57,057 bases of DNA, from the IMG/VR virus record IMGVR_UViG_3300019776_000574, positions 1 to 57,057 of that record. One strand, 5' to 3'. Both the position numbers and the translations under genes were made by a program. The notes beneath the pieces were generated by a model that saw nothing but the letters and a program-made list of their open reading frames with translations, was not told the origin of the DNA and searched no databases. Position 1 is the first letter of the stretch. Every line of letters begins with the position of its first letter. This DNA comes from a virus. Positions 3,358 to 49,671 of the stretch are shown here, piece after piece.

Positions 3358-5580
3358 CTACTCCGTGAATGCGTGGCCATCACTGGCCCGGCCTGGCGGT
3401 TCAACCAAAGGCTCGGCTACCTGTGTTATGCCGGTGAGTTCCTTCTGTACCCGGAGTTTCATCGACTCCTTGGCCAGTTCAGCCTTGACCTGATCGAGTG
3501 CAATATTGCGCTTGTTGGCATAATCCAGCAGGGCGAGTTCCCGCTTAATGTTCAGCTCTTGAATACGGACGGAGGCCGTGGTCTGGTCTCGCTGTGCCAT
3601 GGCCTCGACGTAAGCCGTGTCCCGATCGGTATCGACCTCCATCTTGCGGAGACCGGTCTGAGCCATGACCTTGGTTTTCCACCGCTCGGTTTCGTCGCGG
3701 ATCTTCGCCACCTCGATTGCCGGCACGACGGGAGCGGGGAGGCTCTTTTTCTTTTGTTCGTCCATCGTCCATTTGTCCGGAACGAACCGCTTGGCCTTCA
3801 GGACTTCGACCATGGCCTTTTCCGGATCCAGACCATAGGCCGGGTTCATGGATAACTGCAGCAATACCATGGACTCCATGGCCTGAATTTCGCGCTCGAC
3901 CAGGGCAGTGGATCCCACCGCCTCTATCTTCAGATCACCCTTGGCATTCTCGGGGCCGTGCATCAGCAGCCACTCGTAGTACCGGCGGATGTGCGGCTCG
4001 GTAATGCACTCGTCGAACACCCTGGCTATCCGGCGAAGTATGGTCGAAGCGTTCTGGTGAAGAAGCTGCATGCCCCCGACCGTATCCGGCGCTGATCCCT
4101 GCTGCCCCTGCATGATGAAGAAAATACCGGTGGAATCCTCCATCATCTTGTAGGCAAGTTCGATGATAGCCATCAGTTCGGCCTGCATCATCGGGATATT
4201 GATAGCGGTGAAGGCGTCGGCTACGGATTTAACGTCTGCGTTGTCGGATGCCCACCAGATCTTGCCGCCCCGTAATTCCCACACACCATCTGCCGGGCTG
4301 ATTGCATTGCGTCTGACGATAACCTGTGGGGCAGCTGATAGACCTGCGTTGTCCATCAGCCGGCGGGCGCCTGCGTTCAGCATGTCCTGGGGGGTGCGCC
4401 CCTGCCTGGCCACACCGACACCCCACGGGCTACCCGGGGTCCGCTGCCACGGCATGAAGTCATAAGGGAACTCGCCAGAATCCAGCGGGTTAATGAACGC
4501 CTTGATAGGTGTCTCGTTTACAAGAGTGACCACCGCCGGCAGTTCCCGCTTTGCGCTGTCCTTTGCCTCGATCTCCACCGACATTGCCGACAGGCCAACC
4601 GTGTCAACCATGCCGTAGAAGTACCAGACCTCGAACTTGTCATCTTCGGCGGTTTGATCCTCGGCGTTGCGGTAGCCATCAGAGTAGTTCTTTTTGTTCG
4701 GCCCCTCGTCGATTACCTTATCGATCTGGTCGTCAAGGTACCCCGGGAGGCCTTTGAGGTTCTTCAACTGCTTGGCCGTCAGGCGGTCTCGCTCAAGGAA
4801 GTAGCTGCCGTTGTGGATGCTGTCGCCACAATTCGGATCCGGGAAGCCGTCCCATGGGTCTATGCTCCGGCTCCCCGGCTGGGTCTTGGTAATAATCTCC
4901 ATGCCGACCTGGCCGCCCCGCGTGGTTGTCCTGCGGGTTGTGACCTTATCGGGGAACGGTCCCTTGAGAATACCGGTACCAAGCTTGGCCGAATTCTCGA
5001 TTACCTTGCGAGCCTCGCCGTGGTACTGGCATTCGGTCAGCCAGTCGTGTATCTGAGTTTCCGCAATGCCGGCCTTCTGTGTGGCAATGGCCTGCTGCTG
5101 CTTAAAGTACTCGTCCGACGCAACACCCTCGGGCGGGGTGTCCTGAAGGGGGGTGGGCTTGACTGCAAAGTTCCAGTCTCCGGACGGTAAGAGGATGTCC
5201 CCCATCCTCGCGGCGGCAGAGTCAACGAACTGGCGGGTGATGTTGAAGAAGGAACTACAGCGGGTCGATGATTTCTGCGGGGTCCGGCTGATACCCCCTG
5301 TGGTGGATGCCGATTTCACCCATGGATGGGAATCGCGGTTGGCGTCGTCAACGCCCTGGTAATACTCCTCGTCTTCCTGCCAGATCGTTTCTATGCCGGA
5401 CTGCTTGCGTCCCTTGACCGCCTCGTCGCGCTTCTTGGCAACGTCCTTGCCTATCGTCTCGATCTTGGCGAGCTGGTTCGCCCGCATCTCTTCGATGAGA
5501 TCCTGGAGTTCGGGGGGTAGTTCGTCGGTCGGTATTCCCCGTACGGTCGCAAGATTTGCCGGATCCATGTCATTTCGCAT
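3358..5580 (-). CDS. Portal protein (head-to-tail connector)
   Basis: The 740-residue protein has the length and helix-rich C-terminal barrel expected of a large podovirus portal. The N-terminal 60 residues are charged and helical, the middle contains the portal core with DPWDGFPDPN near residue 240 and MPWQRTPGSPWGVGVARQGR near residue 390, and the last 120 residues are helical with long Lys/Glu runs. It forms the dodecameric ring through which DNA enters and to which the tail adaptor binds. The ATG at 5580 is only about 15 bases after an intrinsic terminator, with GGAG in between. The gene order terminase, portal, scaffold and capsid supports the call. Confidence 0.88.
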   Translation of the reverse strand: MRNDMDPANLATVRGIPTDELPPELQDLIEEMRANQLAKIETIGKDVAKKRDEAVKGRKQSGIETIWQEDEEYYQGVDDANRDSHPWVKSASTTGGISRTPQKSSTRCSSFFNITRQFVDSAAARMGDILLPSGDWNFAVKPTPLQDTPPEGVASDEYFKQQQAIATQKAGIAETQIHDWLTECQYHGEARKVIENSAKLGTGILKGPFPDKVTTRRTTTRGGQVGMEIITKTQPGSRSIDPWDGFPDPNCGDSIHNGSYFLERDRLTAKQLKNLKGLPGYLDDQIDKVIDEGPNKKNYSDGYRNAEDQTAEDDKFEVWYFYGMVDTVGLSAMSVEIEAKDSAKRELPAVVTLVNETPIKAFINPLDSGEFPYDFMPWQRTPGSPWGVGVARQGRTPQDMLNAGARRLMDNAGLSAAPQVIVRRNAISPADGVWELRGGKIWWASDNADVKSVADAFTAINIPMMQAELMAIIELAYKMMEDSTGIFFIMQGQQGSAPDTVGGMQLLHQNASTILRRIARVFDECITEPHIRRYYEWLLMHGPENAKGDLKIEAVGSTALVEREIQAMESMVLLQLSMNPAYGLDPEKAMVEVLKAKRFVPDKWTMDEQKKKSLPAPVVPAIEVAKIRDETERWKTKVMAQTGLRKMEVDTDRDTAYVEAMAQRDQTTASVRIQELNIKRELALLDYANKRNIALDQVKAELAKESMKLRVQKELTGITQVAEPLVEPPGRASDGHAFTE

Positions 5581-18345: not shown

Positions 18346-19320
18346 TTAAAAAATAAACGAAGGCTGTTCTTCTCTGTAAGGCACACCTATATAATTTAGA
18401 ACATTCTTCAGACCGAGTTTATTCATGCAGTAGTTGTGAATCTCGGGGTGCGTGCGTTCCATCATGACAAACCTGTTTGGCGACTGCTCCAGGTGGGCAC
18501 CGAAAGTGCAGAACATGCAGCCCGTTCGCTGGACTCCGCTGAAACGCCATAGACCTCCCCCGCTCTCTTCCTGTTTGCCGTAGCAGGAAGCAACCTCAAT
18601 GTTATTTTCCCGCAAATACTGAAGCACATGCTGTTCCGTCCAAAAGATAATAGGGGAAGACACCGGATTATTGTTGCCATAGGCGTTGCAGCCGTATCGG
18701 ATGTAGTTGTGCTCCCTCGCCCCTGACTCATCGGATGTGGTGCCGATGAACGGGGCACTTCCCGTCTTGGCTGCGAACTTTCGCAACGGGTTCACCTTCA
18801 TGACCTTGCAACACTTATGACTGATCTTGAAAGGCGCATCTTTCAGGTAAAGCCATTTGTCGCTGATTTTGGACATCGGGGAGTGTGTCCCATCGGCTCT
18901 ATAACCCGTAGTCCGCAGACGCACGGTGTTTTTGTTGCGCTCGGTCGGTCGCTGGATCTCGGAGATGTACTGCGCCATTTTTTTGGAAATCACCGGCCAG
19001 CCGTACTTTTCGATGACCTTGTTGAAGGGCATATCCGGTTTCAGGAAGATGACGTTGGGAGTCTTCGCGTTGAGCGCCCGCACCTCCGGGTATTCGAGCC
19101 CGGTGTCAACAAACGCTCCAGGCACCTCCGGGTAGATCGTCCGAACCAGGTGGAGCAGCGCGTGGCTGTCCTTTCCCCCGAGTGAGACATAGACGTTGCC
19201 GTCCCAATACTCGTACCACAGCCTAATCCGACGCAACGACATCTGTACCAGGGCGGTCAACGGGAGTGATTGACGCTGCCGCAGGAAGGCGGTCTTTAAT
19301 TGTTGTTCGGAAATATCCAT
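18346..19320 (-). CDS. PAPS-reductase-family (adenine nucleotide alpha hydrolase) protein
   Basis: The ATG at 19320 follows GAGGGCGCAA and gives 324 residues. The PP-loop SLGGKDSHALLHLV is near residue 45, an ISHKCCKVMK Cys pair lies in the middle, and CMFCTFGAHLE near residue 275 closes the fold, all typical of CysH/DndC-like phage proteins. Such enzymes activate sulfur or nucleotide substrates; in phages their true role is mostly unknown, with sulfur modification of nucleic acids one possibility. Here the gene sits between a VRR-NUC nuclease and the primase-helicase. Confidence 0.82.
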   Translation of the reverse strand: MDISEQQLKTAFLRQRQSLPLTALVQMSLRRIRLWYEYWDGNVYVSLGGKDSHALLHLVRTIYPEVPGAFVDTGLEYPEVRALNAKTPNVIFLKPDMPFNKVIEKYGWPVISKKMAQYISEIQRPTERNKNTVRLRTTGYRADGTHSPMSKISDKWLYLKDAPFKISHKCCKVMKVNPLRKFAAKTGSAPFIGTTSDESGAREHNYIRYGCNAYGNNNPVSSPIIFWTEQHVLQYLRENNIEVASCYGKQEESGGGLWRFSGVQRTGCMFCTFGAHLEQSPNRFVMMERTHPEIHNYCMNKLGLKNVLNYIGVPYREEQPSFIF

Positions 19321-19330
19321 TTGCGCCCTC

Positions 19331-19726
19331 TCACAACAACGAAACACTACAGATCGCCACAGCCTCATCAACCGTCCGTGCAATGCCGGCAAGACCTCCT
19401 GCAGCGCGGACCTGCTGGATGAAATTCTTCTGGTCGTCCGTGGGCCGACCGGTCGGAGTCTTGACTTCGACGGCGCAGAAAATCGCCAGGGTTTTGCCGA
19501 CCATATCCGGGGTGATTTCGATTGATCGCCAGCCGATTAAATCCGAAGATCCGGGACATAGGCCGAATTGCACACGCCGACCGCCAGTGACGTGGAAATC
19601 TCCGCCCCTCGGTCCCTGCGTTATCTTGTTCGCCATCAGCCCGTTGCCGACATTATTCCGGAATATCCTACACCGGCCATTCCCCAACGCCAGCATGATT
19701 TCTGTCTGAATCGTTTTTTCCGTCAT
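19331..19726 (-). CDS. VRR-NUC domain nuclease, 131 aa
   Basis: The protein is a single VRR-NUC domain, a PD-(D/E)xK nuclease that acts on Holliday junctions or flaps. Visible parts are RIFRNNVGNG near residue 20, GSSDLIGW near residue 60, and FCAVEVKTPTGR (catalytic E-x-K) near residue 85. It lies directly downstream of the DECH helicase, and phages often pair these two. It may resolve replication or recombination intermediates. Confidence 0.9.
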   Translation of the reverse strand: MTEKTIQTEIMLALGNGRCRIFRNNVGNGLMANKITQGPRGGDFHVTGGRRVQFGLCPGSSDLIGWRSIEITPDMVGKTLAIFCAVEVKTPTGRPTDDQKNFIQQVRAAGGLAGIARTVDEAVAICSVSLL

Positions 19727-19736
19727 CCCATCCCCC

Positions 19737-22253
19737 CTAAAAATTCAATCCCGCACTTTCCGGCCTGCGTCGGCCCTGTCTCTGCTCAAACCTGATCCGC
19801 GCCCATTTCCGCCAGCCGGCGTACCCGCGGGCCTGCCCCAATCTCTCCCAGTCGTCCAGGGTCTGGCATCGCCCCTCTTCCCGCCCCCGGAACTGCTTGG
19901 CCTTCAGCTCCTCCGCCTTGGCCAGTCGTTCCGCGTGCAACTTCTGGTCTATCTCGTGGAGTTCCCCGGCAACCTCTTCGATCTGGCGACCTTCCGGCTT
20001 GTATTCATGGCCGCAGAACGGACAGCGGGGCTCCGGCATGTGGACGGCATAACACTGCGGGCACTGCTTGACCTTCAGTGTCGGCTCATCGTCGCTGGAT
20101 TTCTTGCGCTTGACTTCGCCGTCGAGAGACCATTCAATGTCGCCCTGGGGGAGCCCCAGGAAGTGCAGTCCGTGCCGGTCGATGTTGCCGACGTGATCTA
20201 GAATGGTTGCATGTTCCTTGCCGGGATACACGCGCAACGCCCGGCCTATCTGCTGGAGCACCAGCGACAGGGACGCCGTGGGCCGCAACAGAATGGCTGC
20301 CCCGACCACCGGGACGTCGGTCCCCTCGCTCACGACGTCGCAACTGGTCAACACGTGGAGGCCACCGTTGCCGAGCGCTGCGATACGGTTCTTGCGGTCA
20401 GTGTCGTTCATGTTCCCGTCGATGCTGGCTGCTTGGAAACCTGCCGCCCGGAACTGATCCGCAACGTGTTCGGCATGGGCAATGGAAGCGCAGAATGCTA
20501 TGGCTGGCACCCCGTTGCAGATCTTGCGGTAATGCTCCACCGCGCTGCCGGTGATGACCGGCTTATCCATCGCCGCGGCTACCTCGCCCTGCTTAAACTC
20601 CCCGAACCGCTTGTGCAGGTTGCCCAGGTCGGCGCCAACCGGTGGAGCATACAGACGGGGCTTGGAGAGATACCCGCGGGTGACCAGGGTCGAGAGGGTG
20701 GGACCGTTCACCATGGAATCGAAGTGACCGCCGCAATGAGAACCCATGCCGCTGCCGTCGAGCCGTGCGGGCGTGGCGGTTACCCCGAGGATCTTTGCCG
20801 CCGGGAACGCCTTAATGATGGTGTCCCATGAGTTTGCCCTGGCGTGATGGCAGTTATGGACTACAAAGCCATTGGCCACATAAGTGCGTAATCCCTCAAC
20901 TTCAAAATTGTAGACGTAATCTGCTGCCGGCATTCCTCCAGATTCTCCAGAACGTGTTTGTTCTTGAATCTCAACACTGTCCACCCTCTGCCAGCCAAAA
21001 GGGTTTCCTTCTTCCTGTCTTGTGCCTGTCTGATAAGTGCCCCGTGCGAATACCCGTCTATCTCTATTGCCAGCAAAATTGACGGCACGGCCAAGTCGAT
21101 TTTGTAATGATTTGGGTACCCGTTCCCGCCCATACCGGTTGTAAAAATATACTCCGGGATCAGTAACGGCACTGAATCCAGTAGCATTTGCTGCGGCGCA
21201 GATAGGGGCTTTCCGTTCCCGCCCTGTATTTTGGGCTTGTGGTTTATTGCTCGAAGAGATCGGGACATCTTTTCCCGTATTTCTGGCCTCGACATGGGAT
21301 TGTTTTTGGCCATTCGTTCCGACGCATAGGCGCGATTTGTTTTCGCCATCGTTTTGCTTGAGACGTCTTTGCAAAACGCTTTTGTGCATTCCGTGGAACA
21401 GTACACTGGCCTGCCCGTATTTGCGCGGGTTCTGTGGCTTCTTACTGTGACCGTGAACTCCTTTTTGCACCAATGGCAGATTGCAGTGATAGGCTCCATT
21501 CGCGCCTTCGCCGCGGCCCCGATAGCCTTCATGCCACATTCTGGATTGCAGTAAACTTTTTGCCCCTTTTTGAACCTTGAAATGTGTTGAGACTTTGTTA
21601 CCTCGAACTTCGTCTGGCAAAACGCGCATTTTGCAATATACATGGTCGCCCTCCTTTATGTCGCCGGCAGATATCCACCCTCTCTTTGTCAGAAACGGGT
21701 GATTTGCCGTAGCCACCACACTATTGCACAATGTTGATACTTTCACAAGCCCGGTTTTTGCGGTGCGCTTAAATGTTCTGACTACTTTCCGAGGGTAGAA
21801 TTTACCATCACTTTCCGACCAAGCATCAACAATATCCCCTGCCTTGATGCTCTCTATTGGAACCATGTTTGGCGATATCAACGTCCCCGCAGGGAAACAT
21901 TCATCGACTATAATCAATTGTGGAGGTTGAACCTTACCCAACCGACGCACAAGGGTCTGGACGCTGGCGACCTGAACATTATCCCATGTCGGAGTATGGC
22001 CGGGGGAAATGATCCCGTGGTCAACGCCGATCTCAGTGAGCGTGGCCGATGTCTGTCTGACGAGCTCCTGCCGGTGGACGAGGACCCACACGCGATTGTT
22101 GCGTTTTACGGCACCTTCCGCAATATGGCTCAGCACGACCGTTTTTCCCCCGCCCGTGCTCAACTGATACAGCACAGCCCTGTCACCCTGCCGGAAGTGT
22201 TGGCGCAGCCGGTTCACATCGTGGACTTGGTAGTCTCGGAGTTTATATTTCAT
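19737..22253 (-). CDS. DECH-box helicase interrupted by an intein
   Basis: The 838-residue precursor is a superfamily 2 helicase. Walker A is STGGGKT near residue 33. Motif II is split by an intein: residues 1-118 end IIVDE and residue 468 resumes CHHARA. Later motifs are GVTATPARLDG (III), SEGTDVP (V) and QQIGRALRV (VI), and the C-terminus has a zinc ribbon CPQCY...CPFCGHEY. After splicing the helicase is 489 residues. It probably unwinds DNA in replication or recombination. The ATG at 22253 starts MKYKLRDYQ, the Q-motif-like region of phage helicases. Splicing is needed to restore the ATPase. Confidence 0.92.
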   Translation of the reverse strand: MKYKLRDYQVHDVNRLRQHFRQGDRAVLYQLSTGGGKTVVLSHIAEGAVKRNNRVWVLVHRQELVRQTSATLTEIGVDHGIISPGHTPTWDNVQVASVQTLVRRLGKVQPPQLIIVDECFPAGTLISPNMVPIESIKAGDIVDAWSESDGKFYPRKVVRTFKRTAKTGLVKVSTLCNSVVATANHPFLTKRGWISAGDIKEGDHVYCKMRVLPDEVRGNKVSTHFKVQKGAKSLLQSRMWHEGYRGRGEGANGAYHCNLPLVQKGVHGHSKKPQNPRKYGQASVLFHGMHKSVLQRRLKQNDGENKSRLCVGTNGQKQSHVEARNTGKDVPISSSNKPQAQNTGRERKAPICAAANATGFSAVTDPGVYFYNRYGRERVPKSLQNRLGRAVNFAGNRDRRVFARGTYQTGTRQEEGNPFGWQRVDSVEIQEQTRSGESGGMPAADYVYNFEVEGLRTYVANGFVVHNCHHARANSWDTIIKAFPAAKILGVTATPARLDGSGMGSHCGGHFDSMVNGPTLSTLVTRGYLSKPRLYAPPVGADLGNLHKRFGEFKQGEVAAAMDKPVITGSAVEHYRKICNGVPAIAFCASIAHAEHVADQFRAAGFQAASIDGNMNDTDRKNRIAALGNGGLHVLTSCDVVSEGTDVPVVGAAILLRPTASLSLVLQQIGRALRVYPGKEHATILDHVGNIDRHGLHFLGLPQGDIEWSLDGEVKRKKSSDDEPTLKVKQCPQCYAVHMPEPRCPFCGHEYKPEGRQIEEVAGELHEIDQKLHAERLAKAEELKAKQFRGREEGRCQTLDDWERLGQARGYAGWRKWARIRFEQRQGRRRPESAGLNF
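20853..21899 (-). mobile_element. Intein in helicase motif II, 349 aa
   Basis: The intein occupies residues 119-467 of the precursor. It starts with Cys1 in CFPAGTLI (block A), has the block B motif VVATANHPFL, and ends VYNFEVEGLRTYVANGFVVHN (blocks F and G) before a Cys as the +1 residue. All residues needed for standard splicing are visible. Between about residues 205 and 420 the intein frame has no LAGLIDADG, HNH or other nuclease motif; that DNA instead encodes a separate endonuclease in another frame. Confidence 0.93.
20861..21643 (-). CDS. Homing endonuclease nested out of frame in the intein, 260 aa
   Basis: This gene lies wholly inside the intein DNA and is shifted relative to the helicase frame. 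AAAGGAGGGCGACC precedes its ATG at 21643; these bases also encode the intein residues IKEGDH. The protein has two zinc-finger-like units (CAFCQTKF...CNPEC and CHWCKKEF...CSTEC, residues 7-90), a NUMOD-like NPMSRPEIREKMSR near residue 118, and a Vsr/DUF559-type nuclease core with YKIDLAVP and AIEIDGYSH near residues 195-210, ending GWTVLRFKN. The stop is eight bases before the end of the intein. It should cut intein-free helicase alleles. Confidence 0.85.
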   Translation of the reverse strand: MYIAKCAFCQTKFEVTKSQHISRFKKGQKVYCNPECGMKAIGAAAKARMEPITAICHWCKKEFTVTVRSHRTRANTGRPVYCSTECTKAFCKDVSSKTMAKTNRAYASERMAKNNPMSRPEIREKMSRSLRAINHKPKIQGGNGKPLSAPQQMLLDSVPLLIPEYIFTTGMGGNGYPNHYKIDLAVPSILLAIEIDGYSHGALIRQAQDRKKETLLAGRGWTVLRFKNKHVLENLEECRQQITSTILKLRDYALMWPMAL

Positions 22254-37683: not shown

Positions 37684-40600
37684 CTATTTCCCTTTCTTCA
37701 ACTCAAATCGCTGAATGAGGCGGTCGTAAATTTTCTCTTCCTGCCGTTCGAGTTCCTTGGTGCGAGTCCGCTTCTCGACTATGCTCAACGTGTCATCCAG
37801 CCGAATAGCATCGATAGCGTCCCGCTTCGCCTTGGCAAGCTTGGCCTGCTGATCGGCTATCTTGGCGACGGCCAGCAAGTCCGCATTCTCTACCTTCAGT
37901 TTGCCGGCGGTCTCGAAGTCGCGGGCCTTCTTGGCGGAACGGTATTCCTCCGTGGCTTTATCGGCATCCTTGGCTATTTCCCAGAATATGCGCCGGGTAT
38001 CCCTGACAGTGTTCTCCCGAGCCAGTACACTGGCTATGGGGATCTCTGCCGTCTCAGGGATGCCGTCATTCGCCACGACCGTACCCAGATCCACCACCTG
38101 GCCGATGAACGTAGCAGCACCACCCAGGATGGAACGGGTGTAGAATTTCAGAACTTCCGGGGAGATATCGATCGCCCCAGCGCTGTACTTCGTCCCCCCG
38201 GTTGCTTCATTGATCACGGAGGCGGCCGCGTCGTACATTGTGCCCTTGGTACCCCTCCACATATTCTGCGAATCAGGCTTGCCCTCGGAGTCTTTCTCTG
38301 GGGCGATGGGATTGCCGAAACTATTCAGGTTCATGGTCGGCGCCAGAATCATCTTGGGGACGGTCGGCATTATCGCCAGCGGCTGCAGTTGTCCATCGTC
38401 AGTCACCGGATTGCCGATAGCCGACAGTCCGTCGAGTATCGTACTCGCCAGATTCAGCCCCGTGCGCTTGTCGGCCTTGCCGTGCACCATGTCGTTTATG
38501 GCGTAACCAATCCCCACGAACGAACCGTATTCATACGGCAGCGGGATGGTTACCTGCGATTTATCCCCGGTCCTGATCACCAGGTTCCGGTTCTTCGTGC
38601 TGCGGGGCACCTTCTCCCATTCGTCGTCATCACCACCACCCAGCATCCTGGCCCACTCGGCGGCCAGGAATCCGACCAGCGCCATCGATCCTACCAACGC
38701 CTGCGCCTGGCGCCTGTGCTCGCTCTGTGACAGGGCAAACCATGTCCGGTTGATACCCTGGATAGCCGGGTTGTAGAACAGCCAGAGAGCTCCGATCTGT
38801 GCGCCCCACTCGCCGCGCTTGTCAAAGTTGATGGTTGAGTTCTTCGCCGCCTCGCCGGCCTCTGCCTCGCTTTTGCCTTCTTCCACTAAGGTCATGAACG
38901 TGGATACCCGAAAGGCGTTTTCACTCACGGCATTCATCGTCTCGATCATCTTCAGGAAGTGACCGAGCACGGGGACCTTGTGAAATTGCGAGATACCGGA
39001 CTTGGCCAGGGCCACAGTCCGCGCCGCCATGTCAGATCGCCCCTTTGCCTTCTCTTCAGCGAACACGCTGTTGTATGCGGCGATGGCACTGACCTGCTCC
39101 CGGTATACCTTCCGGATATCCTCCCCCACCCGCTCCATGGAGTTCAGGTATGACGCTCCAGTCGATCCACCCTGCTTGCGGTACCGGTTCACCCATTGCG
39201 ACTTGGTGGGGTCGTGCCTCGCCTTCATGAACTCGCGGACGGCGCGGGGGTAATTCAGCGCGATCTTTGCTGCAGTGGCTGTACCGTAGTCACCGGTCAG
39301 GTTCACCATGCCGGCGGTGAAGTCCCGGAACGTGTTCCGAATGGTAAACCGGGGGTCATACCCCGTGTAGACTCGCGACAGGTAATTATTGATCTGCTTG
39401 CCGACCATGAGCAGGGAGTGCAGGTGCTCCTCCCCCATGCCGGTCAGCGCCTTGGCCGCAATATCGTCGTTGATCTGGATGCGGACCTGGTGGCCGTTGA
39501 TGTAGGCGTTGATTTCGTTCTCGCCCAGCATCGGAGTGGTGACCCATGCAACGGTGGGATCACTGGAGGCGTGGATTACGAAATCCTCCAGGTCGCTCTT
39601 GTCCGGTTTCATCTGCTGGTCGATGTACCGCTCTGCTTCGGCGTCGGTGGAAAATGCCGCCACCGGCTCGCGCTGATAGAAAACCGTGTACTGCGGCTTG
39701 TTCTTGAATACCCGGCGCTTCTCGGGCTTACCAATGGTGCCGATCTGGTCGTCTTGTGCCTCGTGGATCAGTTGCGCTACCGACAGGGAGACGTTGTTCT
39801 TTTCGATGGTCTTGACGGCCGCCTCCCGGGCCTTGATGATGTTCTCCAGGACGTACTCATCGCGCAGTCCGTGGCCACTCCGGCGCTGCTGCTTGCCGGA
39901 TACTCGGAGGCCTTTGCCGGTGCGGGGCTCGTTGCCTTCGCCACGGACGGGAACGTAATGCCGGTAGGCGTTATTCCATGCCTCCCGCATCTCGTCGGAG
40001 ATGATGCCGGCATTCTGTAGCATGTCTGCCGTTTCCCCGCTGAATGCCTGCCACCGGTCGGCCAGTTTCTTGAACTCGGGGAAGTCGGGACGGGCCTTGT
40101 ACTCGGCCAGTTTCTGCTTTGCGTCGGCATCGGTGACACCGAACGCCAGGGCGTCGGGGTTGTCGTGCAGTTTGCGCATGGCGGCGTTGGCCTCGGCGGT
40201 GTGCTGCATCAAGAGGTAATCGCTGATGTCGTCCAGGTCGATCTTGTGTTGCGCTGCCTCTTTAATCAACGGGGCAACCTGATTGTCCATGAAGCGCTTG
40301 AGATGGTCGGCAATCTTGCCGTTCATGGTGTAGATGCCGCGGGCGGCGTTGGCCAGTTCGGAGAGCCTGACACCCTGCTGGTCGAGCCAGTCCTGCAGGA
40401 CCTGCACCCGGTTGTAGCGGTCTTGAAGTTTCCGCCAGGCGCGTTGGGTGGCGGTTTCTTCGGGGAGCGCGCTGGGTTTCTTCAGAGAGAACTTGCTGGT
40501 GATATTTACGTCCTCGTCGCTGAAAATTACGTAGTTGTAATTCGCGGCGGGGTCATCTTCCCATGCGATAGATGCTTTGCCGTAGTCCTCCTCGTATGAA

Positions 40601-43600
40601 TCTGCAAGGATTTGTGCTTGCTCTTTGGATTTAAGGGTGTCGGTTGACTTCTTACCATTCGCCCAAGTTACCCGGTATCCACCATTGTTCCGACTCGTCC
40701 CGTCCAGGTACTTGATGCCACGGATGCCGAGGGAGTGGAGGTAGGAGGAGGCCCATGTCTCATCAGGGTCGGGCCGAATTGCCCCATTGCTTTTTTCTGC
40801 TAGTTCTCTTCCTCGCCCTTTGGCGATTTCTCTATACAGTGTGCTGCCAAGTTTGAATTTGTCTATCTCAGCGGGGTCACTTGTGTTTCTTGCCCTTTCC
40901 AAGTAAGAATCGAGATTGCCAAGATACGGTGATTCCTTCAGCGCCTCCTTCACCTTCTCGCTCTGCTCACTCAGCGGCTTGTCCCACAGCAGGTATTCAT
41001 CCTCGGCCGGGGCTAGTTCGACTTGGTAGAGACGGCCCCTGGCTTGCTTTCTAAGACCATCTATCACCTCTTGCAGTTTTGTGGTGTCGAGATCGCGGAG
41101 ACTTGCCTTACGGTTCTGAACCTGTTTTGCAGTCAAGGCGTCCTTGCTTGCTGCCGCAAAAAATATCTCGGCCCGCTCATCACCATCAAACTCTCTGCCG
41201 GGGAATGAGTTTTCAAGTGTGTCACGAATCGGCAAACCACGCCCCCCACGACTTCCCGACAGCGCGTCCCGATAATACTCCGCTACATCCTTATTCCCCG
41301 CGAAGTACAATCCATACCCGTAAGCCTGCGCCCCCTCGCCGGTGCCTATCTGCGAAGTCTTGAACTTCTCGAAGTCATGCGGCGAACCATGCCAGGCTGT
41401 CATGAACTGCGTACCAGCCGCCGGCACCGCCACCCCCTGCGCGTTCCGCTTCAGCTTTCCCGACATCAGATCATTGAAAACATCATCAGCCGTGCGCCAG
41501 CCCTGCCCCTGGAACAGTCCCTTGACCTTGCGGATAAACGCCTTGATACGGTCGAACAGGAGGCGGGCGTAGCCCTTGGCAATCTGCTTGCCGGCCACAT
41601 GGTCAGCGAAGGCATCAGCGCGCCGCTCCGAACTGGCCACCCCATCCTTGGCCGGATACTGCCTCTCCAGGATGCCGATGTCCTTTGCCGACAGCAGCCC
41701 GAGGGATTCAGCGGCGTGCTGCACTTCATGGTAGCCCGTGCGGTCGGTGGCGCCGTCCATGGCCAGGGTAATTATCGACCGAACCTCGCCCGTGGTGATG
41801 TTCTTCACCGACTGGTGCATGCCGGCAATGTTGCCACTGGTTTTCCCGTGGGCGCCCCATGCCTGTTTGGCATCCTCGGGCGGGGAAATGTGGTCGACTA
41901 TGTTGAGCGTGACCTTGCCGCCGGGGAGGGCCTGGGCAATGAGGGATTGGACGCGGTTGATGGCTTCAGCATTGAGAACCCGCGTGCCAGAGCCAACTGA
42001 TTCCCATCCGGTCGAAAACTGCGTCTCTCCCGGCACCCCCTCCAGCGCCGCCACAAAAGCGTCCCTATTCTCAGCCGTACCGAAATGGAACCCGCGGATT
42101 GCCCCGGCCCCGTTGAATCCGGAATAGTGTCCGCTGTGTCGCTTCGCCAGGGTAAGGGCGGCCTTGTAATCGGCATCGTTCAGTTTGCGCTGCACCGTGG
42201 CTACGTAGATGGGGGCACCGGTCTTGGTGTGGTTGAACTGGGCGGATACCACGCCGTCGACATTCGGGGGAGCGGGGAGCGGGGCACCGCTGACGGTGGT
42301 TGCTTCCGGGAGTTTGGCCCCGCGGCTTGACAGTATCTCGGCAACACCCGACTCTGCCGGAGCCTCTGGAACGATCCTATCCGGCACGCTCGCATCTTGA
42401 ATGCGGTCAAAAAAACCCTTGATGGTCGTCTCATCAGTCCAGTCACGCAGAATCTGCGGCGTGGTGCCGTTCTTGTCCAACACCACCACGCGGGTCATTA
42501 CCGCCGTGCCTGCCCGCTCAAAGGTGACGGACGGAAGGAGGTAGGAGGCGGTGAGCTGCATGTCGTTTGCTGCGCGTTTCTCGCGCTTGCCCTTGGCCTC
42601 GATGCCGGAAAGCCGGGTTGTGGGTACCGGCATGTGTTGGCCGTTCGGAAGCTTGATGTGCGCGTACTTCTCGGTTGAACTGGAATCAATGACCTTCGTG
42701 ATAGTCACCTTGACGCGCTGCTCGAAGATACCTGACTTGCGCTGCTCTGCCGGATCAAGGTAAAAGTTCGCAGTATCCCCTGAGTAGATCGGCTGACCGG
42801 CAATCGATCCGACCGGCTCCACCGGTTGCACATCCTCCTCATACAGCCACTTGTCGAACTTCTTATCAGCCGCCGGCCCGGTGGGAATGATCGCCACTAT
42901 TCGGCCGCCGTCCTTCAGGTGCTTCGCGGCCTTAGCCAGATGGTCGACGGCCGTGCGACCGCCAGACCCGAAAGGCGGATTCATCACGATGGCGTTGTAC
43001 TTATTGACGATGTTGTGATCTTCGAACGTGCCTTGCACCAGATCCCCGTCGAACACCAAGGCGGCACGGCTGGCCAGCTCAAGAGATGGCTCTATCATTC
43101 TCCTCTTGGCATCCTCGGGGAACCAGCGGGCAATGGCGCCGTGGCCGCCAGATGGCTCCAAAACCGAATCACCCGAGCGGATACCAGCCCACTCCACCAT
43201 CTTGAGCCCCAGCGGTTCGGGAGTGGCGAAGTAATCAGCTCCGACGTCGTTCTGTCGGCCTTTCTTCTGGCCAAAATAGAATGCCGTGGCCCGGTCCCAC
43301 TCGGTCAAGGCGGAATTCGCCAGACGGTCCCGCTCCTTGCCGCCGGTGCCTTCCCCCTCATGACCAGCCGGGTAGGTGTCGGACTCCTGGAATCCCTCAA
43401 TGAACGCGTCACGGAGAGCCCGGGCCGACTCGCCCAGCGCCAGGTTTTCGGCGGCACTGGTCCGGTTGGCAATCGTGGTGGCAAATGCGTACCGCTCCCA
43501 GTTCGTGCCGGTGTTGAGGTACCGGAACATGGCGTTGCTGGCCTGCCCTATGCGGTAGGTGCGGCCTTCCTGCTGAATGGATGTTACGGGCTTCGTCGGC

Positions 43601-46600
43601 AGCCCCAGGTTGAACGTGACTCGCTGGGCGCTCCCCGTCGTATCGTGGAGAGAAATACCCGCCTTGCCGGCATCGGATTGAACGATGATCACCTTGCGCG
43701 GGTCGTTGTCGTCCTGGAACGCCTGGATTGCCGCCTTGCGGTTCTTGGCTGTCTCGGTGCCGTTGATGATCAGGATGTCGGGGAAGGCCTTCTGCAGCGC
43801 AACTAGGGGCGATGGGAGCCTCCCCAGATCCATTTTGATCAGGTCCGGACGGGCGGCCATAAATTCGCGCACGGTTTCCCCGACCGTTGTCGTTACCGGC
43901 TGGCTGGAACCATCTGGGTAGTAGCTGAAGGTTCCGGTATCCGCCTGGAGCCCCGTCACATCGAACGGGTTGAACCCGCCGCCCTTGTTGAAATCGTGGA
44001 ACACGACAACCTGCCGGCCAAGGGCGAGATGATCCTTGATTAGCGGTATGACCGCCTCCGCCTTGATGGCCTCCAGCAGATACCGGCGGGAGAGGTGGTC
44101 AAACTTGGCTTGCACTGCCTTAGCCACTGCCCCCATGCGGCGGTTGTCTTGCAGATACTTCAGGCCGTCGTCAATCTTCGACCCGATGGCCGAATCAATC
44201 AGCACGAACTTCCGATCATAATCCGAATCCACGTCGAGGATCCGCCCGGAAAGCACCCCCTGCCGCTTCAGCCAGGCGTTAAACTGGCGCTGCATGATGC
44301 CGCGGTCTACCTCGGGAGGCGGTTCGGTCAGCTTGTTGTAGCGCATCCGGTAGCCGAAATGCTGCATCATGAAGCGGTCGTAGTTGTTCCCGGAGTTGTA
44401 CCGCTGGCTGTTGACTTCCGGCCCGTAGCTGAACAGGTACCCCTCGGCGTAATCAATCGATTTCTCATAGGCAAACGGGGTGGCAGAGAGGAACGCAACG
44501 CGGGTCCGGTTCTCGCCCTGTGCTGCCTGGACATCGGCGCGGGTTTTCTTGAGGACGGCCTGCCATTCCTGGTCAATAGCGTTGGCCTTTTTCTCCAGGG
44601 ATTCGGCGGGAAGTTTCAGTTTGCGGGCTTCATTCAGGGCGGCATAGGCCTTCCTGCGGCGTTCGGCCAGGTCGGGGTGCAGCATCTCTGCACGCTGGTA
44701 CGCACCACCAGGATGGAGGGACAGCGCCTGCAGCGCCTTGGATGCCAGGGAGGGGTTGCCGTCTTTGTTGGAGGAAAGGTTATCGGCCTCGTCGGTGATG
44801 ATCAGATCCCAGTTCCGCCGGGCAAGGCTGGTGTTCTGGCCTAAATTGGCATAGGTGGTGATAACCGCCCCGCTGCCGCCGTTGTCCTTGGTGTCGTTCA
44901 GCTTCTTGAGATCGAGCAGGTTCAGGTTCTTGCCGAGGGTGACCCATGCCGCAATGATATCCTGGTTCGGGGCGACGATGAGGATATTCTTTTTGCCCTT
45001 GTTGACGAACCGGCGGGCGATGCCCAGGCCGAGAGCAGTCTTGCCGGTGCCGGTACCGTTGGTGAACATGACCCCGTAGCCGTCCGGCTGACTAAACCGT
45101 GCCTCGGCAAAGGCCACGTCCTCGCGCTGGCCCGGGTGGAGCTGCGGCAGGTCGGCGTCAATGCTACCCTTCGCGGCCTTTACTGGTACAGGTCGCTCAA
45201 CAGTTTTTGCAACTGCTTCTGCTGAGACGGATTCAGCAGGTATTCCAGCGTCCCCAGCATCACCGCTTCGTTCACGCTCGTCACTTCCGGCAGGCTCTGC
45301 CTCAGTTCCGGATCGTTCTTTTCTTCCACGAACCGGCTTATCGCTTCGTTCTCCAGGAGTAGCGGTTTCAGGTCGAGGAAGGAGAGAATCAGCATCTGGT
45401 TCAAACCCCTCTTGCGAAGTGTCTTGCACTCGCTGGAGTGATTCGCTATCAGTCCCTCCTGGTCGAGGCTGAATGTCCTCTTGGCCCAAGGCGTCTTGAG
45501 TTGCTGCGTCTTGGCTATCTCGTTCCAGATCGCCGCGTTCACCATCGGTTTCTCCTCCCTCCAGTATTGTACCATTGCGCTCGGCGTCGGCAAGCTCGCC
45601 GTAGAACTTCAGGGCGAACGGTTTGATCTTGGCGCCGAACTTGTCGATCAGTTGCTTTGCGAATGCCTGCGCTGCTTCCTTGAACGAGAAGCCGGCCGCC
45701 CGGATTTCCGACCACATGGTTACCAGGTGCGGCTTGAGCCGCTGGTATGTCTCGTCGTCGAAAGCTGGCCCACTGCCCAGCTTGTTCGGGTCGGTGATGC
45801 CCTTGAATATCTCGTTGATGGCGTCGGCGCCAGCGTCCACCGCCTTGACTATGTGGTCTTGCATGGATACGGGCTTGGCATCGAACAGCCCCGCCGGTTC
45901 CGGGGTGAATGCGTCCATCAGGTCGGACGTACTGGCCCGTTTGCCGCCTTGCTTCTGCACGCCGCCGATGGTCGGGGCGCGTTTGTCGCCCTTGACTGCT
46001 ACGTCCTGTTTCCAGTCGGATGCGTCGGTGGTGGGTGCCGGATCATAATAATTGCGTCCCGTAGCATAAAGAGGCTCCGTGCGAGTCGCGTCTGATGCCG
46101 GCTGGAAATCTGGATTTACGTTGAAGGATATTATTGAATCGGCGTTGACCTCTGCCTTTCCGTTTACGATGGGCGCGACGTTCACGATATTGTGGCGGGC
46201 CTGCATCACAAGGTATTCTCGGCCGGTACCATCGGTAACTATGCTGCCATTACCGGGGTGCTTGTCGGGCGTTATCTTGTCGGCGGTGTCAGTCTCACCC
46301 CCCGCCTCATCCAGCATCCTCTCAAAATCATCTACGCTGGGTATTTCTTCCCGCGCAGCTCCAACATCTTCTTGGCTGCCTTCAAAACCTGCACTCTCTC
46401 TCGCGGTTTCAGCACCTGCAGTGCGGCCCGTATCTTCGTTTTCGCTGGCAATTTCATCAGCTACCCCCTGTTCGGCAATGATCTGGTCAAAGAAATCGAA
46501 CACGTCGGCGCGGTCGGCCTCTGATACCTCAGATTCTACCACATCCAGTACCGTATTCAATGCCTGCTGTTGCTGTTCGTTAAATTCGTCGAGCAGTCGG

Positions 46601-49600
46601 TCCTCGTACTCCTTTGCCATGCGGTCGGCTTCGCTGTCAAGGTCCCGCTCGGTCGAGATGGTGGCGCGCCCCCGTGTGTGGCTGTCGATGGCGTCGAACA
46701 GGTCGTTGATGCCGGCACTTTCCGGCAGGTAACCGTGACCGACCAGCGTTTCCCGCATCTGGTCGAGGGGTAGCCCGGTCTTCTTGAATACGTGACCGAA
46801 CCGCCGGGTTTGCGTCAGAACGTGCTTGGCCAGATCCTTGGCGTTATCCTTGACGAGCGAGCCCCATTCCCGGGACGCCTGCGCGGTGTCGATGCCGCCG
46901 AGCTTGGAGATGGCGACGATGATGTCGTCCTTCTGGCGGTCGACCTTCGGGGCAGGTTTGGCAGGCTTTGTCTGGATGGTGGCGGCCGTGGACTCGGGTT
47001 GGGGCGCTGGTCTCACCAACGGCTTCAGGATGCTCGGGACCACCTTTGGCTGTTCTTCGCCGAACAGGTACATTTCCGCTGAATCCTTGTCGGACTGTGA
47101 CGGTTTGTCCCGGTTGCGCTTGAACTGCGGTAGATTGAAATCGTCCCCCCTGGCCTCGGCCTCGGCAATGGCATTGTCCATGAACCACTGAGCAACGCGC
47201 TTCTCGGAGGCGGACGCCTTGCCATTGGTGGAGAAATCGAACTTCGGAAAAGGGGTCGTTTTCCTGCCGCTGGCCGTCGTGACCACTTCACCGATTGCCA
47301 GTTTGCCACCTATCTCGCCCCGTTTTACCTCGCCTTCTTTCTTGCCGAGTTGCTTCGCCTTGGTTGCCATGGTGGAGGGGGCGGGCTGTGCTACTGGTGC
47401 TTCTCCTGCAAGTATCGCCCTGGCTTGCTTCATTGCATCAGCAAATGGAAGATGGTTCGGAAGGGCGTCTTTCACAAGTCGTTCGGCTATTCTGTTCGCT
47501 GATTGCGGCTTTTCCGGTACGGCTGCTTGTACGTTCGGCTCACTGGGTCCCCCTATCGGCGGAGCCTGGAAATCCTGATAAGCTGCCTCACCGCCGATGA
47601 TCTGGTTGTACTGGTCAAGCTGGATCTGCAGTTGCATCGCCCGGGCGCTCTCCGGGTCGACGGTGGCCAACTCGGAAACAACCTGCTGCTTGGCGGCGAT
47701 GGCATCCTCTCGGGAGATTTGCGGGATACCGGACGGCACCGGTGCCTGCCCCGGCAATGGGGAAATGTCACCAAACCTTGCGTTGATGATGCCGGTTGGA
47801 TCTCCGTTTGCCCCCGTGACGAGGTGAATAGTTTCGTTGTTCGATGCCTCTGGGTAATTGTTCATTGCCCTGGCGTTCTGTAATGCCGCCTGCTGCATAC
47901 CCTCGGGTGTGCCGTCATGCGGGGTGACTTCGTAGCCAAGAACTTGACCATTAAGTCCGTTCACTTGGGTGATTATGCTGTTCGGAGGAGTCGGACGTTG
48001 TGGCACCGCTACCGGCGCGGCTTCGCTGGCCTGACCGACGAGGTTAGTTTCTGGCTGGCTTTCGGGCACCGGTGCAGGGGTGGGCCTGCTACCAACAGGA
48101 GAGAATTCACCCACGTTGCTCGCCGGGAGGTCAACAACCGGCGCGGCAGGTACGGGGAGCGCTCCCGTCTCACGTCCTGCTGCCATCTGGCTGGCCAGCA
48201 GAGGGTCGGCTTGATTCCGTTCGACGTCTTCAAGCGCGTCTCGGCTCAGTACCGTATCTCCGGCAAAGGTCCGGTTGAGATCCACTGCCCGCTGTTCGTC
48301 AGGGAGAAGCTCACCACCGAGGGCCGGCTGACCGGTGAACTGTTCACGCATTGCCGCCCGGGCCGGGTCAAGAAATGCAGTATTGATTTCATCGGCGGTA
48401 CTGACTGCCGTGGGCGCGACGGCGGCCGGCGCGGCAACCTCGCCACCCAGTTCCTGCAGCAACCGCTCCTGTTCCTGGCGGGTCCATCCGGCGGATACCT
48501 CGGCGTTGGCCTGGGCGATTGCGTCGTCTACGGATACGCTCGCATCGGTTATGCCGGTGTCGGGAATGGGTACGTCTGTGGTCGGCTTGCGGCGCATTGA
48601 CTCCAGGCGCTGGCGGATAACATTGACGCCACCGGTTTCGGCAACAAGGTTCATACTGCCACCCATGCCCATGCCGGCTACTAAGCCTTGTGCTGCAGCC
48701 TTGCCGATGCCTTCGTCCCACGGCTTGCCCAACGCCAGATTGGTAAAGACCTGTTCCTGCGCGGACTGTGGCAATTCCTCAAGAACGCCTTCTTTAAACA
48801 TCCCCTTGGCGATTTCTTTGCCGGAAGCAAGAATGGCCCTGGTTGATGATCCACTCAGACCTGTTGTTGCTGCAGCAACCTCGGCGTCTCTCAGCCCCGG
48901 TATCTTTGACGTGCCAACCCCTATTGCTGACGTGATGAGCCCGCCACCCAATGCCGGGGCTACAGTTTGCGTCCAATCTTTCCCCGCTTGGCGGCCTTGC
49001 TCCTGGATGCTGCCAGCAGTTAACGCACCTTCTGTCCCGGATGACGCAGCAATCAACGCTGTCTGCACTTTTGGATCGGCAAAGAATTTTGTTGCTGCTG
49101 CGGTCCCCGGCTGGATACCAGCCTTGGCCAGCATGCCCACTGCGACCCTACGGGCTACCGCTGCACTCCCTATGGACATGGGGGCCGATTCAACGATGTT
49201 TCCGAACGCAACTGATGGGTTATCTACCAGTGCTGAGAGTGTATCAACAAACCCCTTTGCCTTCTCAACTTCCAGATTTGCAGCCTGACGTTCAGGGCTG
49301 TATCCGCTGGATATGATTTGTTTGGTGGTTTCAGGGTCATAGCCAATAGCCGCCAGACCCTTGCCTGCCAAGTTGCCCGTTGCTATATCCGCTACACCGA
49401 CAACTGACTCACCGAGACCTACTACCCCCTTGGCGAGATCCATGGCCGTATCTTTTGCAAAGCTTGGTGCACGGGCGGCCACGGAGCGGTCAGACGGCGA
49501 AGCAATCCCCATGGTCGATATGGGTTTTTCCTGAAAGGTGGGAGTGGATGACATCTTGCCGGCGGCGTCGAACACCTCGGCAAGATCTGATTCGGTTGGA

Positions 49601-49671
49601 GGGTTGGGATCATTCCAGTCAAACGTAATCGTCCGTTTGGTGGCGTTGTCGAAAACAGTGTACTCAGCCAT
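37684..49671 (-). CDS. Giant polyvalent protein, 3,995 aa
   Basis: This single frame fills a fifth of the genome. N-terminal residues 50-360 are Gly/Ala-rich and partly hydrophobic. A disordered region follows. A SNF2-like helicase has Walker A GTGTGKT near 1540, DEAD at 1627 and QQEGRTYRIGQ near 1960. An adenine-methylase-like domain has VLEPSGGHG near 2165 and NPPFGSGG at 2231. A zincin-like HEVQH is at 2648. An ADP-ribosyltransferase-like domain (AWHGSPHDF, YGYGLYFAG) starts near 2760. The C-terminal 900 residues match large polyvalent-associated domains (LPD38 type). Such proteins are thought to be packaged and injected with the DNA to counter host defence. It lies among internal virion genes. 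Confidence 0.88.
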   Translation of the reverse strand: MAEYTVFDNATKRTITFDWNDPNPPTESDLAEVFDAAGKMSSTPTFQEKPISTMGIASPSDRSVAARAPSFAKDTAMDLAKGVVGLGESVVGVADIATGNLAGKGLAAIGYDPETTKQIISSGYSPERQAANLEVEKAKGFVDTLSALVDNPSVAFGNIVESAPMSIGSAAVARRVAVGMLAKAGIQPGTAAATKFFADPKVQTALIAASSGTEGALTAGSIQEQGRQAGKDWTQTVAPALGGGLITSAIGVGTSKIPGLRDAEVAAATTGLSGSSTRAILASGKEIAKGMFKEGVLEELPQSAQEQVFTNLALGKPWDEGIGKAAAQGLVAGMGMGGSMNLVAETGGVNVIRQRLESMRRKPTTDVPIPDTGITDASVSVDDAIAQANAEVSAGWTRQEQERLLQELGGEVAAPAAVAPTAVSTADEINTAFLDPARAAMREQFTGQPALGGELLPDEQRAVDLNRTFAGDTVLSRDALEDVERNQADPLLASQMAAGRETGALPVPAAPVVDLPASNVGEFSPVGSRPTPAPVPESQPETNLVGQASEAAPVAVPQRPTPPNSIITQVNGLNGQVLGYEVTPHDGTPEGMQQAALQNARAMNNYPEASNNETIHLVTGANGDPTGIINARFGDISPLPGQAPVPSGIPQISREDAIAAKQQVVSELATVDPESARAMQLQIQLDQYNQIIGGEAAYQDFQAPPIGGPSEPNVQAAVPEKPQSANRIAERLVKDALPNHLPFADAMKQARAILAGEAPVAQPAPSTMATKAKQLGKKEGEVKRGEIGGKLAIGEVVTTASGRKTTPFPKFDFSTNGKASASEKRVAQWFMDNAIAEAEARGDDFNLPQFKRNRDKPSQSDKDSAEMYLFGEEQPKVVPSILKPLVRPAPQPESTAATIQTKPAKPAPKVDRQKDDIIVAISKLGGIDTAQASREWGSLVKDNAKDLAKHVLTQTRRFGHVFKKTGLPLDQMRETLVGHGYLPESAGINDLFDAIDSHTRGRATISTERDLDSEADRMAKEYEDRLLDEFNEQQQQALNTVLDVVESEVSEADRADVFDFFDQIIAEQGVADEIASENEDTGRTAGAETARESAGFEGSQEDVGAAREEIPSVDDFERMLDEAGGETDTADKITPDKHPGNGSIVTDGTGREYLVMQARHNIVNVAPIVNGKAEVNADSIISFNVNPDFQPASDATRTEPLYATGRNYYDPAPTTDASDWKQDVAVKGDKRAPTIGGVQKQGGKRASTSDLMDAFTPEPAGLFDAKPVSMQDHIVKAVDAGADAINEIFKGITDPNKLGSGPAFDDETYQRLKPHLVTMWSEIRAAGFSFKEAAQAFAKQLIDKFGAKIKPFALKFYGELADAERNGTILEGGETDGERGDLERDSQDAATQDALGQEDIQPRPGGTDSESLQRVQDTSQEGFEPDADSLLPRPETATPGERSDKPVRGRKERSGTEAEPAGSDERERSGDAGDAGIPAESVSAEAVAKTVERPVPVKAAKGSIDADLPQLHPGQREDVAFAEARFSQPDGYGVMFTNGTGTGKTALGLGIARRFVNKGKKNILIVAPNQDIIAAWVTLGKNLNLLDLKKLNDTKDNGGSGAVITTYANLGQNTSLARRNWDLIITDEADNLSSNKDGNPSLASKALQALSLHPGGAYQRAEMLHPDLAERRRKAYAALNEARKLKLPAESLEKKANAIDQEWQAVLKKTRADVQAAQGENRTRVAFLSATPFAYEKSIDYAEGYLFSYGPEVNSQRYNSGNNYDRFMMQHFGYRMRYNKLTEPPPEVDRGIMQRQFNAWLKRQGVLSGRILDVDSDYDRKFVLIDSAIGSKIDDGLKYLQDNRRMGAVAKAVQAKFDHLSRRYLLEAIKAEAVIPLIKDHLALGRQVVVFHDFNKGGGFNPFDVTGLQADTGTFSYYPDGSSQPVTTTVGETVREFMAARPDLIKMDLGRLPSPLVALQKAFPDILIINGTETAKNRKAAIQAFQDDNDPRKVIIVQSDAGKAGISLHDTTGSAQRVTFNLGLPTKPVTSIQQEGRTYRIGQASNAMFRYLNTGTNWERYAFATTIANRTSAAENLALGESARALRDAFIEGFQESDTYPAGHEGEGTGGKERDRLANSALTEWDRATAFYFGQKKGRQNDVGADYFATPEPLGLKMVEWAGIRSGDSVLEPSGGHGAIARWFPEDAKRRMIEPSLELASRAALVFDGDLVQGTFEDHNIVNKYNAIVMNPPFGSGGRTAVDHLAKAAKHLKDGGRIVAIIPTGPAADKKFDKWLYEEDVQPVEPVGSIAGQPIYSGDTANFYLDPAEQRKSGIFEQRVKVTITKVIDSSSTEKYAHIKLPNGQHMPVPTTRLSGIEAKGKREKRAANDMQLTASYLLPSVTFERAGTAVMTRVVVLDKNGTTPQILRDWTDETTIKGFFDRIQDASVPDRIVPEAPAESGVAEILSSRGAKLPEATTVSGAPLPAPPNVDGVVSAQFNHTKTGAPIYVATVQRKLNDADYKAALTLAKRHSGHYSGFNGAGAIRGFHFGTAENRDAFVAALEGVPGETQFSTGWESVGSGTRVLNAEAINRVQSLIAQALPGGKVTLNIVDHISPPEDAKQAWGAHGKTSGNIAGMHQSVKNITTGEVRSIITLAMDGATDRTGYHEVQHAAESLGLLSAKDIGILERQYPAKDGVASSERRADAFADHVAGKQIAKGYARLLFDRIKAFIRKVKGLFQGQGWRTADDVFNDLMSGKLKRNAQGVAVPAAGTQFMTAWHGSPHDFEKFKTSQIGTGEGAQAYGYGLYFAGNKDVAEYYRDALSGSRGGRGLPIRDTLENSFPGREFDGDERAEIFFAAASKDALTAKQVQNRKASLRDLDTTKLQEVIDGLRKQARGRLYQVELAPAEDEYLLWDKPLSEQSEKVKEALKESPYLGNLDSYLERARNTSDPAEIDKFKLGSTLYREIAKGRGRELAEKSNGAIRPDPDETWASSYLHSLGIRGIKYLDGTSRNNGGYRVTWANGKKSTDTLKSKEQAQILADSYEEDYGKASIAWEDDPAANYNYVIFSDEDVNITSKFSLKKPSALPEETATQRAWRKLQDRYNRVQVLQDWLDQQGVRLSELANAARGIYTMNGKIADHLKRFMDNQVAPLIKEAAQHKIDLDDISDYLLMQHTAEANAAMRKLHDNPDALAFGVTDADAKQKLAEYKARPDFPEFKKLADRWQAFSGETADMLQNAGIISDEMREAWNNAYRHYVPVRGEGNEPRTGKGLRVSGKQQRRSGHGLRDEYVLENIIKAREAAVKTIEKNNVSLSVAQLIHEAQDDQIGTIGKPEKRRVFKNKPQYTVFYQREPVAAFSTDAEAERYIDQQMKPDKSDLEDFVIHASSDPTVAWVTTPMLGENEINAYINGHQVRIQINDDIAAKALTGMGEEHLHSLLMVGKQINNYLSRVYTGYDPRFTIRNTFRDFTAGMVNLTGDYGTATAAKIALNYPRAVREFMKARHDPTKSQWVNRYRKQGGSTGASYLNSMERVGEDIRKVYREQVSAIAAYNSVFAEEKAKGRSDMAARTVALAKSGISQFHKVPVLGHFLKMIETMNAVSENAFRVSTFMTLVEEGKSEAEAGEAAKNSTINFDKRGEWGAQIGALWLFYNPAIQGINRTWFALSQSEHRRQAQALVGSMALVGFLAAEWARMLGGGDDDEWEKVPRSTKNRNLVIRTGDKSQVTIPLPYEYGSFVGIGYAINDMVHGKADKRTGLNLASTILDGLSAIGNPVTDDGQLQPLAIMPTVPKMILAPTMNLNSFGNPIAPEKDSEGKPDSQNMWRGTKGTMYDAAASVINEATGGTKYSAGAIDISPEVLKFYTRSILGGAATFIGQVVDLGTVVANDGIPETAEIPIASVLARENTVRDTRRIFWEIAKDADKATEEYRSAKKARDFETAGKLKVENADLLAVAKIADQQAKLAKAKRDAIDAIRLDDTLSIVEKRTRTKELERQEEKIYDRLIQRFELKKGK
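45180..45545 (-). CDS. Nested gene inside the giant polyvalent gene, 121 aa
   Basis: An ATG at 45545 with GGAGGGAGGAGAAACCG upstream opens a 121-residue frame shifted relative to the giant gene. The product (MVNAAIWNEIAKTQQLKTPW to the end QLQKLLSDLYQ) is balanced in composition and predicted helical, with many Leu, Glu and Lys. In the same stretch the giant protein is low-complexity (Glu, Asp, Gly, Ser, Pro, Arg), as expected when another frame is under selection. It ends just before the helicase domain. No family was recognised. Confidence 0.6.
   Translation of the reverse strand: MVNAAIWNEIAKTQQLKTPWAKRTFSLDQEGLIANHSSECKTLRKRGLNQMLILSFLDLKPLLLENEAISRFVEEKNDPELRQSLPEVTSVNEAVMLGTLEYLLNPSQQKQLQKLLSDLYQ

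Follow-up and report, generated by a model that had tools for sequence, protein, structure and literature searches.

A probable dual-coding intein with an out-of-frame homing endonuclease gene in a phage helicase

Dassa et al. (2009) reportedly described fractured genes that associate split inteins with a Vsr-like endonuclease. In reviews, the endonucleases of inteins are described as in-frame fusions translated with the intein (PMC3943268), while fractured genes are summarised as split inteins located around a free-standing endonuclease (PMC7891396). The locus considered here belongs to the viral record IMGVR_UViG_3300019776_000574, whose 57,057 nucleotides (nt) are called the window below. 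It differs from both arrangements: a superfamily 2 (SF2) helicase gene of the minus strand holds a continuous intein, within which an endonuclease gene is read in the +1 frame. This is very probably a dual-coding (overprinted) intein with a separately translated homing endonuclease.

The same arrangement recurs elsewhere. Viral and genome contigs scanned with profiles yielded 188 rows in which a single open frame holds the two intein halves; they reduce to 112 non-redundant loci (<90% DNA identity), hereafter the nested loci. The nuclease phase is +1 in 112/112 of them, with the intein frame open, and another phase occurs in none. The two frames, their selection regimes, folds and recurrence, and the presence or absence of the intein in related alleles, were computed here; splicing, internal initiation, cleavage and homing are what we infer.

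The helicase intein and the gene nested in it

The open reading frame (ORF) at 19737-22253 of the minus strand is an uninterrupted SF2 helicase precursor of 838 codons (838 amino acids, aa) with zero stops, matching ResIII, Helicase_C and the PHROG 16 DNA helicase. A slash marks the insertion point of the intein below. The features of the locus are as follows:

21900-22253, minus strand: N-extein, SF2 (ResIII/RadD-like) helicase up to VDE of motif II (Pfam ResIII, E 4e-22, precursor residues 2-119; PHROG 16)
20853-21899, minus strand: continuous class 1 intein of 349 aa, CFPAG...VVHN, Cys1...His-Asn / Cys+1 (PF14890, TIGR01443, HINT fold)
21699-21710, minus strand: intein block B, TANH (TxxH), with T64 and H67 invariant
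21650-21657, minus strand: Shine-Dalgarno sequence AAAGGAGG of the nested gene, inside the intein codons K-E-G(-D) of IKEGDH
20861-21643, minus strand: gene of the nested homing endonuclease (260 aa), read in frame +1 with respect to the intein
21000-21629, minus strand: intein-frame linker (intein residues about 91-300), stop-free, overlapping the nested gene
20853-20915, minus strand: intein blocks F and G (VYNFEV...VVHN), through which the 3' end of the nested gene runs, stop codon included; predicted local distance difference test (pLDDT) score of 97 for residues 331-349
19737-20852, minus strand: C-extein, beginning with CHH, the remainder of motif II (Helicase_C, E 3e-13)

The intein carries Cys1, the block B TxxH, a terminal Asn and Cys+1, as class 1 inteins do, and the precursor matches PF14890 in Pfam (E 6e-10). 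C1, T64xxH67 and N349 are invariant in an alignment of 43 homologues, and Cys1, TxxH and the terminal Asn are all present in 108 of the 112 nested loci. The C-extein is further documented by an intein-free homologue, a Bordetella phage helicase sharing 50% identity. In the window, intein and extein are not broken into two ORFs as in fractured genes. The in-frame endonuclease domain of canonical full-length inteins is lacking as well, here as in all the nested loci. An in-frame endonuclease located elsewhere in the intein was considered and rejected: no nuclease family is matched in the precursor frame, and most of the linker has a pLDDT below 50.

The nested ATG lies 256 nt past the intein start and the nested stop 8 nt ahead of the intein end. 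The encoded protein has two Cys-rich, Cys4-type zinc knuckles, both supported by the alignment, and a DUF559 domain (E 1e-10). The second knuckle (C56, C59, C82, C86) is nearly invariant in the nuclease family, and the first is found in a subset only. All the nuclease sequences aligned (54/54) match DUF559, and E194, D196, H200 and D209 are invariant in these 54 sequences. A search of plasmids with the endonuclease gave three DUF559 matches only, all distant.

The AlphaFold2 model of the nested protein, built with 54 family members, reaches a pLDDT of 91.5. Its nuclease core resembles 3hrl, a putative endonuclease-like protein (Z 12.7), the EDxHD homing endonuclease I-Bth0305I (3r3p; Z 11.7 over 91 residues, root mean square deviation 2.2) and Vsr (1cw0; Z 9.8), and the protein also gives a profile match to I-Bth0305I (E 0.003). 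It thus has both the Vsr-type fold and the conserved E, D, H and D of EDxHD/Vsr-like enzymes. Matches to the nuclease core fill the structure-search list, which barely probes the zinc-knuckle part. In the model of the intein frame, HINT strands are confidently predicted for residues 1-90 and 301-349 (pLDDT mostly at least 90, 77-79 at 311-330), and match mini-inteins such as Mtu RecA and Ssp DnaB. The linker has a pLDDT of about 40-60 and is predicted to be disordered.

An earlier note, made from the DNA letters alone, had described a helicase split at VDE/CHH by a complete intein, with an endonuclease out of frame and wholly inside the intein DNA, two zinc fingers and a Vsr/DUF559-like core to be checked by profile searches. 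The continuous precursor, the CFPAG...VVHN/C boundaries at 20853-21899 and the PF14890 match agree with the first point. The two distances are exact, the frame is +1, and the DUF559 and Vsr matches bear out the core. Both fingers hold as well, the first one for part of the family.

Selection on the two frames and recurrence of the arrangement

Random synonymous-codon shuffles of the window's nested gene introduce on average 10.4 stops into the intein frame, and none of 300 is stop-free, so that the arrangement is far beyond chance; synonymous shuffling predicts about 9 intein-frame stops per nested gene. The third frame contains a mean of 17.2 stops and is never free of them among the nested loci. 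An intein frame left open by chance was rejected on these two grounds.

The intein frame can stay open only if no nested codon ahead of a codon starting with AA, AG or GA has T as its last base. T occurs at 0/5015 of these positions in 83 non-redundant nested genes, versus 24.6% before other codons. The corresponding values are 33% versus 30% in fractured loci and 32% versus 35% in standalone DUF559 genes. The nested set being defined by the absence of stops, the unbiased count is that of all the loci in which the intein halves share a frame; they are stop-free except for one fractured clade.

Ratios of nonsynonymous to synonymous substitution rates (dN/dS) were obtained from 10 independent pairs of loci (70-94% identical) by scoring each substitution for its effect in both frames. 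In the overlap region, dN/dS is 0.29 for the nuclease (95% interval 0.20-0.35) and 1.03 for the intein (0.86-1.20). In the 5' part that belongs to the intein only, it is 0.30 for the intein and 0.96 for the +1 frame. This pattern indicates that the nuclease is the conserved product of the overlap, where the intein frame is neutral but kept open. The intein dN/dS falls to 0.08 over its 24 final codons (blocks F and G). The roles are therefore reversed at the 3' end, where the tail of the nuclease adapts to the intein.

These results support the dual coding that the earlier note proposed to check by dN/dS in both frames, with purifying selection on the nuclease frame and neutrality plus stop avoidance in the intein frame. 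They also agree with its view that the overlapped intein frame holds no nuclease motif. Its description of this frame as a tolerated linker applies to the neutral part; it does not extend to blocks F and G, which are constrained and confidently folded. The note had also pointed to assembly indels, or to homologues without a conserved nested frame, as what would speak against it. The nuclease frame is under selection in homologues, and the recurrence of one phase with an open intein frame across 112 loci excludes the objection of two assembly indels.

The dual-coded length represents a median of 75% of the intein in the nested loci. Using tblastn, the nested protein matches 40 annotated phage records, whose only annotation under the match is a gene labelled helicase, hypothetical or "coil containing". 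Reading the DNA revealed a +1 nuclease with an open intein frame in the Vibrio phages K391, 1.088.O, CP-T1 and 159E43-1b, in the Corynebacterium phage phi673 and in the Pseudomonas phage MR14. CP-T1, K391, phi673 and MR14 are isolated phages and count among the 112 loci. A nested locus (L100) is also carried by the isolate genome of Ktedonobacter racemifer. Fifteen other rows (8 non-redundant loci), with 15-35 stops between the intein halves, are fractured genes. In one locus (L275, 1846-3425), the N-extein, the N-terminal intein part (IntN) and the endonuclease are fused in one frame while the C-terminal part (IntC) lies in another; this is either an intermediate form or the result of a single indel.

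Expression and mobility of the nested gene

The nested ATG of the window is preceded by AAAGGAGGGCGACC, whose predicted duplex with the anti-Shine-Dalgarno sequence has an energy of -12.1 kcal/mol. This strong ribosome binding site overlaps the K-E-G codons, as the earlier note had it. ATG is the best candidate start in 70 of the 80 non-redundant loci that have a candidate start. In these 80 loci, Shine-Dalgarno energies are stronger at the best starts than at matched internal start codons (Wilcoxon p 1e-4), with -6 kcal/mol or better for 68% of best starts versus 14% of background positions. The predominance of ATG and the excess over the control make internal initiation the likely way in which the nested protein is produced. 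Five loci (L035, L037, L038, L047 and L051) have no strong Shine-Dalgarno sequence and share a GGTGC/CACC-like motif directly before the nested ATG, perhaps a hairpin controlling initiation.

All the insertions fall within motif II (DExH) of an SF2 helicase or next to it, with DE/CH in 86 of 121 cases. In Vibrio phages, the C-exteins of K391, which has a nested intein, and of 234P10, which has none, are 98.5% identical. The empty site of 234P10 reads ...CAAGATGAG directly followed by TGTCACCAC, exactly where K391 holds 1068 nt. The site is likewise empty in 1.251.O, and the Vibrio phages K389 and K453 (L277 and L278) have at DE/CHH a mini-intein that is about 150 residues long and lacks an endonuclease. 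Nested, mini-intein and empty alleles of a single site are what homing predicts, and the nested enzyme is expected to cleave intein-free alleles and to drive homing.

Other observations concern the same site. K389 and K453 are nearly identical to carriers of the nested intein and have separate endonuclease genes annotated just downstream. Free-standing relatives of the nuclease lie directly upstream of intein-free helicase genes and overlap their start in L096 (2971-5036) and L063 (2992-5260); they could possibly protect or attack the same site without an intein. The phage contig L050 also has a free-standing relative just upstream of an intein-free helicase gene. This helicase gene shows a +1 frameshift precisely at the DE/CHH intein site (3893-3911, GATGAACGGACACCAC), as if it had been cut and imprecisely repaired, although it could be a sequencing error.

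In the proposed mechanism, translation of the helicase frame would give a precursor from which the HINT domain (intein residues 1-90 and 300-349, with the disordered linker) would splice itself out, restoring motif II. Ribosomes starting at the internal Shine-Dalgarno sequence and ATG would read the +1 frame and produce a separate endonuclease with zinc knuckles and an EDxHD/Vsr-like core. This enzyme would cut intein-free helicase alleles at the conserved DE/CHH codons, and repair of the cut would copy the whole intein into the empty allele. In the intein-frame linker, selection would act only against stops, the sequence itself not being conserved.

Several points weigh against this interpretation. 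Production of the nested protein and its cleavage and homing activity are inferred from sequence. About one third of the loci have weak Shine-Dalgarno scores, which makes the choice between initiation and frameshifting ambiguous for them. The 10 pairs used for dN/dS do not include the window, which has no close relative, and the nested set was collected using endonuclease profiles seeded on nested members. Furthermore, a co-conversion tract was sought in the flanking identity of the Vibrio alleles and none was clear.

The nested gene could be real and its product nevertheless made as a fusion of IntN and endonuclease, through +1 ribosomal frameshifting from the helicase frame. The loci devoid of a good Shine-Dalgarno sequence would fit such a model, and the fusion seen in L275 implies that a fused form can exist. 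However, the window has a near-perfect Shine-Dalgarno sequence and ATG, its endonuclease frame is open for only about 26 nt ahead of this ATG, a start with a signal above control is usual across loci, and free-standing relatives exist (L063, L095, L096), so that frameshifting appears unlikely. It is about as doubtful that the nuclease serves another role than the homing of this intein, for instance phage-phage exclusion or superinfection control. The relatives found upstream of intein-free helicases in L063 and L096 could indeed act on rival phages, but almost all family members are found at one site, motif II of SF2 helicases, the presence/absence alleles are precise, and the protein has a homing-endonuclease fold. 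That sequencing or assembly indels had shifted an ordinary in-frame domain was a fair first guess, given the in-frame fusions described for intein endonucleases (PMC3943268). This is now extremely improbable: isolates and metagenomes share the same phase with an open intein frame, and errors cannot generate the complete stop avoidance and the two-frame selection pattern. A dual-coding intein with internal initiation and homing thus remains the preferred interpretation.

Elsewhere in the window, ORFs adjoining the helicase gene (18346-19726, minus strand) resemble, by eye, a PAPS-reductase-family protein and a VRR-NUC nuclease. An ORF of 3995 residues (37684-49671, minus strand) is unusually large for a 57-kb phage genome.

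Relation to split inteins and to known systems

The fractured loci form a single clade (Shimodaira-Hasegawa-like approximate likelihood ratio test, 99) that branches inside the nested diversity in a tree rooted with standalone DUF559 genes, in which several deeper branches are weakly supported. The IntN of this clade is 88-89 residues long and stops at the beginning of the nuclease; conserved candidate starts for IntC are located 57 and 44 residues from its end. This suggests, as the simplest order, that the nested state came first and fracture second. Since the linker is neutral, stops can be gained in it at no other cost than having to provide a start for IntC. Stops in the linker together with such a start would convert cis-splicing into trans-splicing. 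It therefore seems rather likely that these loci represent a widespread and old class of dual-coding inteins of phages and bacteria, from which at least some fractured, naturally split inteins derive. Since split inteins are widely used tools, the still open question of their origin has practical weight, and this scenario offers a testable answer to it.

The arrangement is not peculiar to the window phage: a large and widespread family, overlooked in annotation, breaks the rule of in-frame fusion. It also provides a clean natural case of dual coding over a long stretch of the same strand, with one frame conserved and the other neutral but stop-free, and this recurs over large divergence. Literature searches, which did not cover the text of Dassa et al. 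(2009), revealed no precedent for an out-of-frame endonuclease gene overprinted on a continuous intein.

Fractured genes are said to share with this locus a Vsr/EDxHD-type endonuclease that is a gene of its own within intein DNA, mainly in phages. However, their intein is split into two ORFs and spliced in trans, whereas the intein ORF of the window runs uninterrupted through the whole endonuclease gene. I-Bth0305I has the same catalytic fold as the nested nuclease, but it is hosted by a phage group I intron, where no translated frame has to overlap its ORF, and the DNA-binding parts differ. Canonical full-length inteins of the PI-SceI type also have a HINT domain, an endonuclease between blocks B and F and a conserved motif of a nucleic-acid enzyme as insertion site; their endonuclease is fused in frame (PMC3943268), whereas here it is a separate +1 gene facing a neutral linker. 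The engineered entanglement STALEMATE (PMC12455656) likewise combines a nuclease/intein gene sharing its DNA with a second frame and an internal ribosome binding site, but it is synthetic and intended for biocontainment, whereas the case found in the window is natural and widespread.
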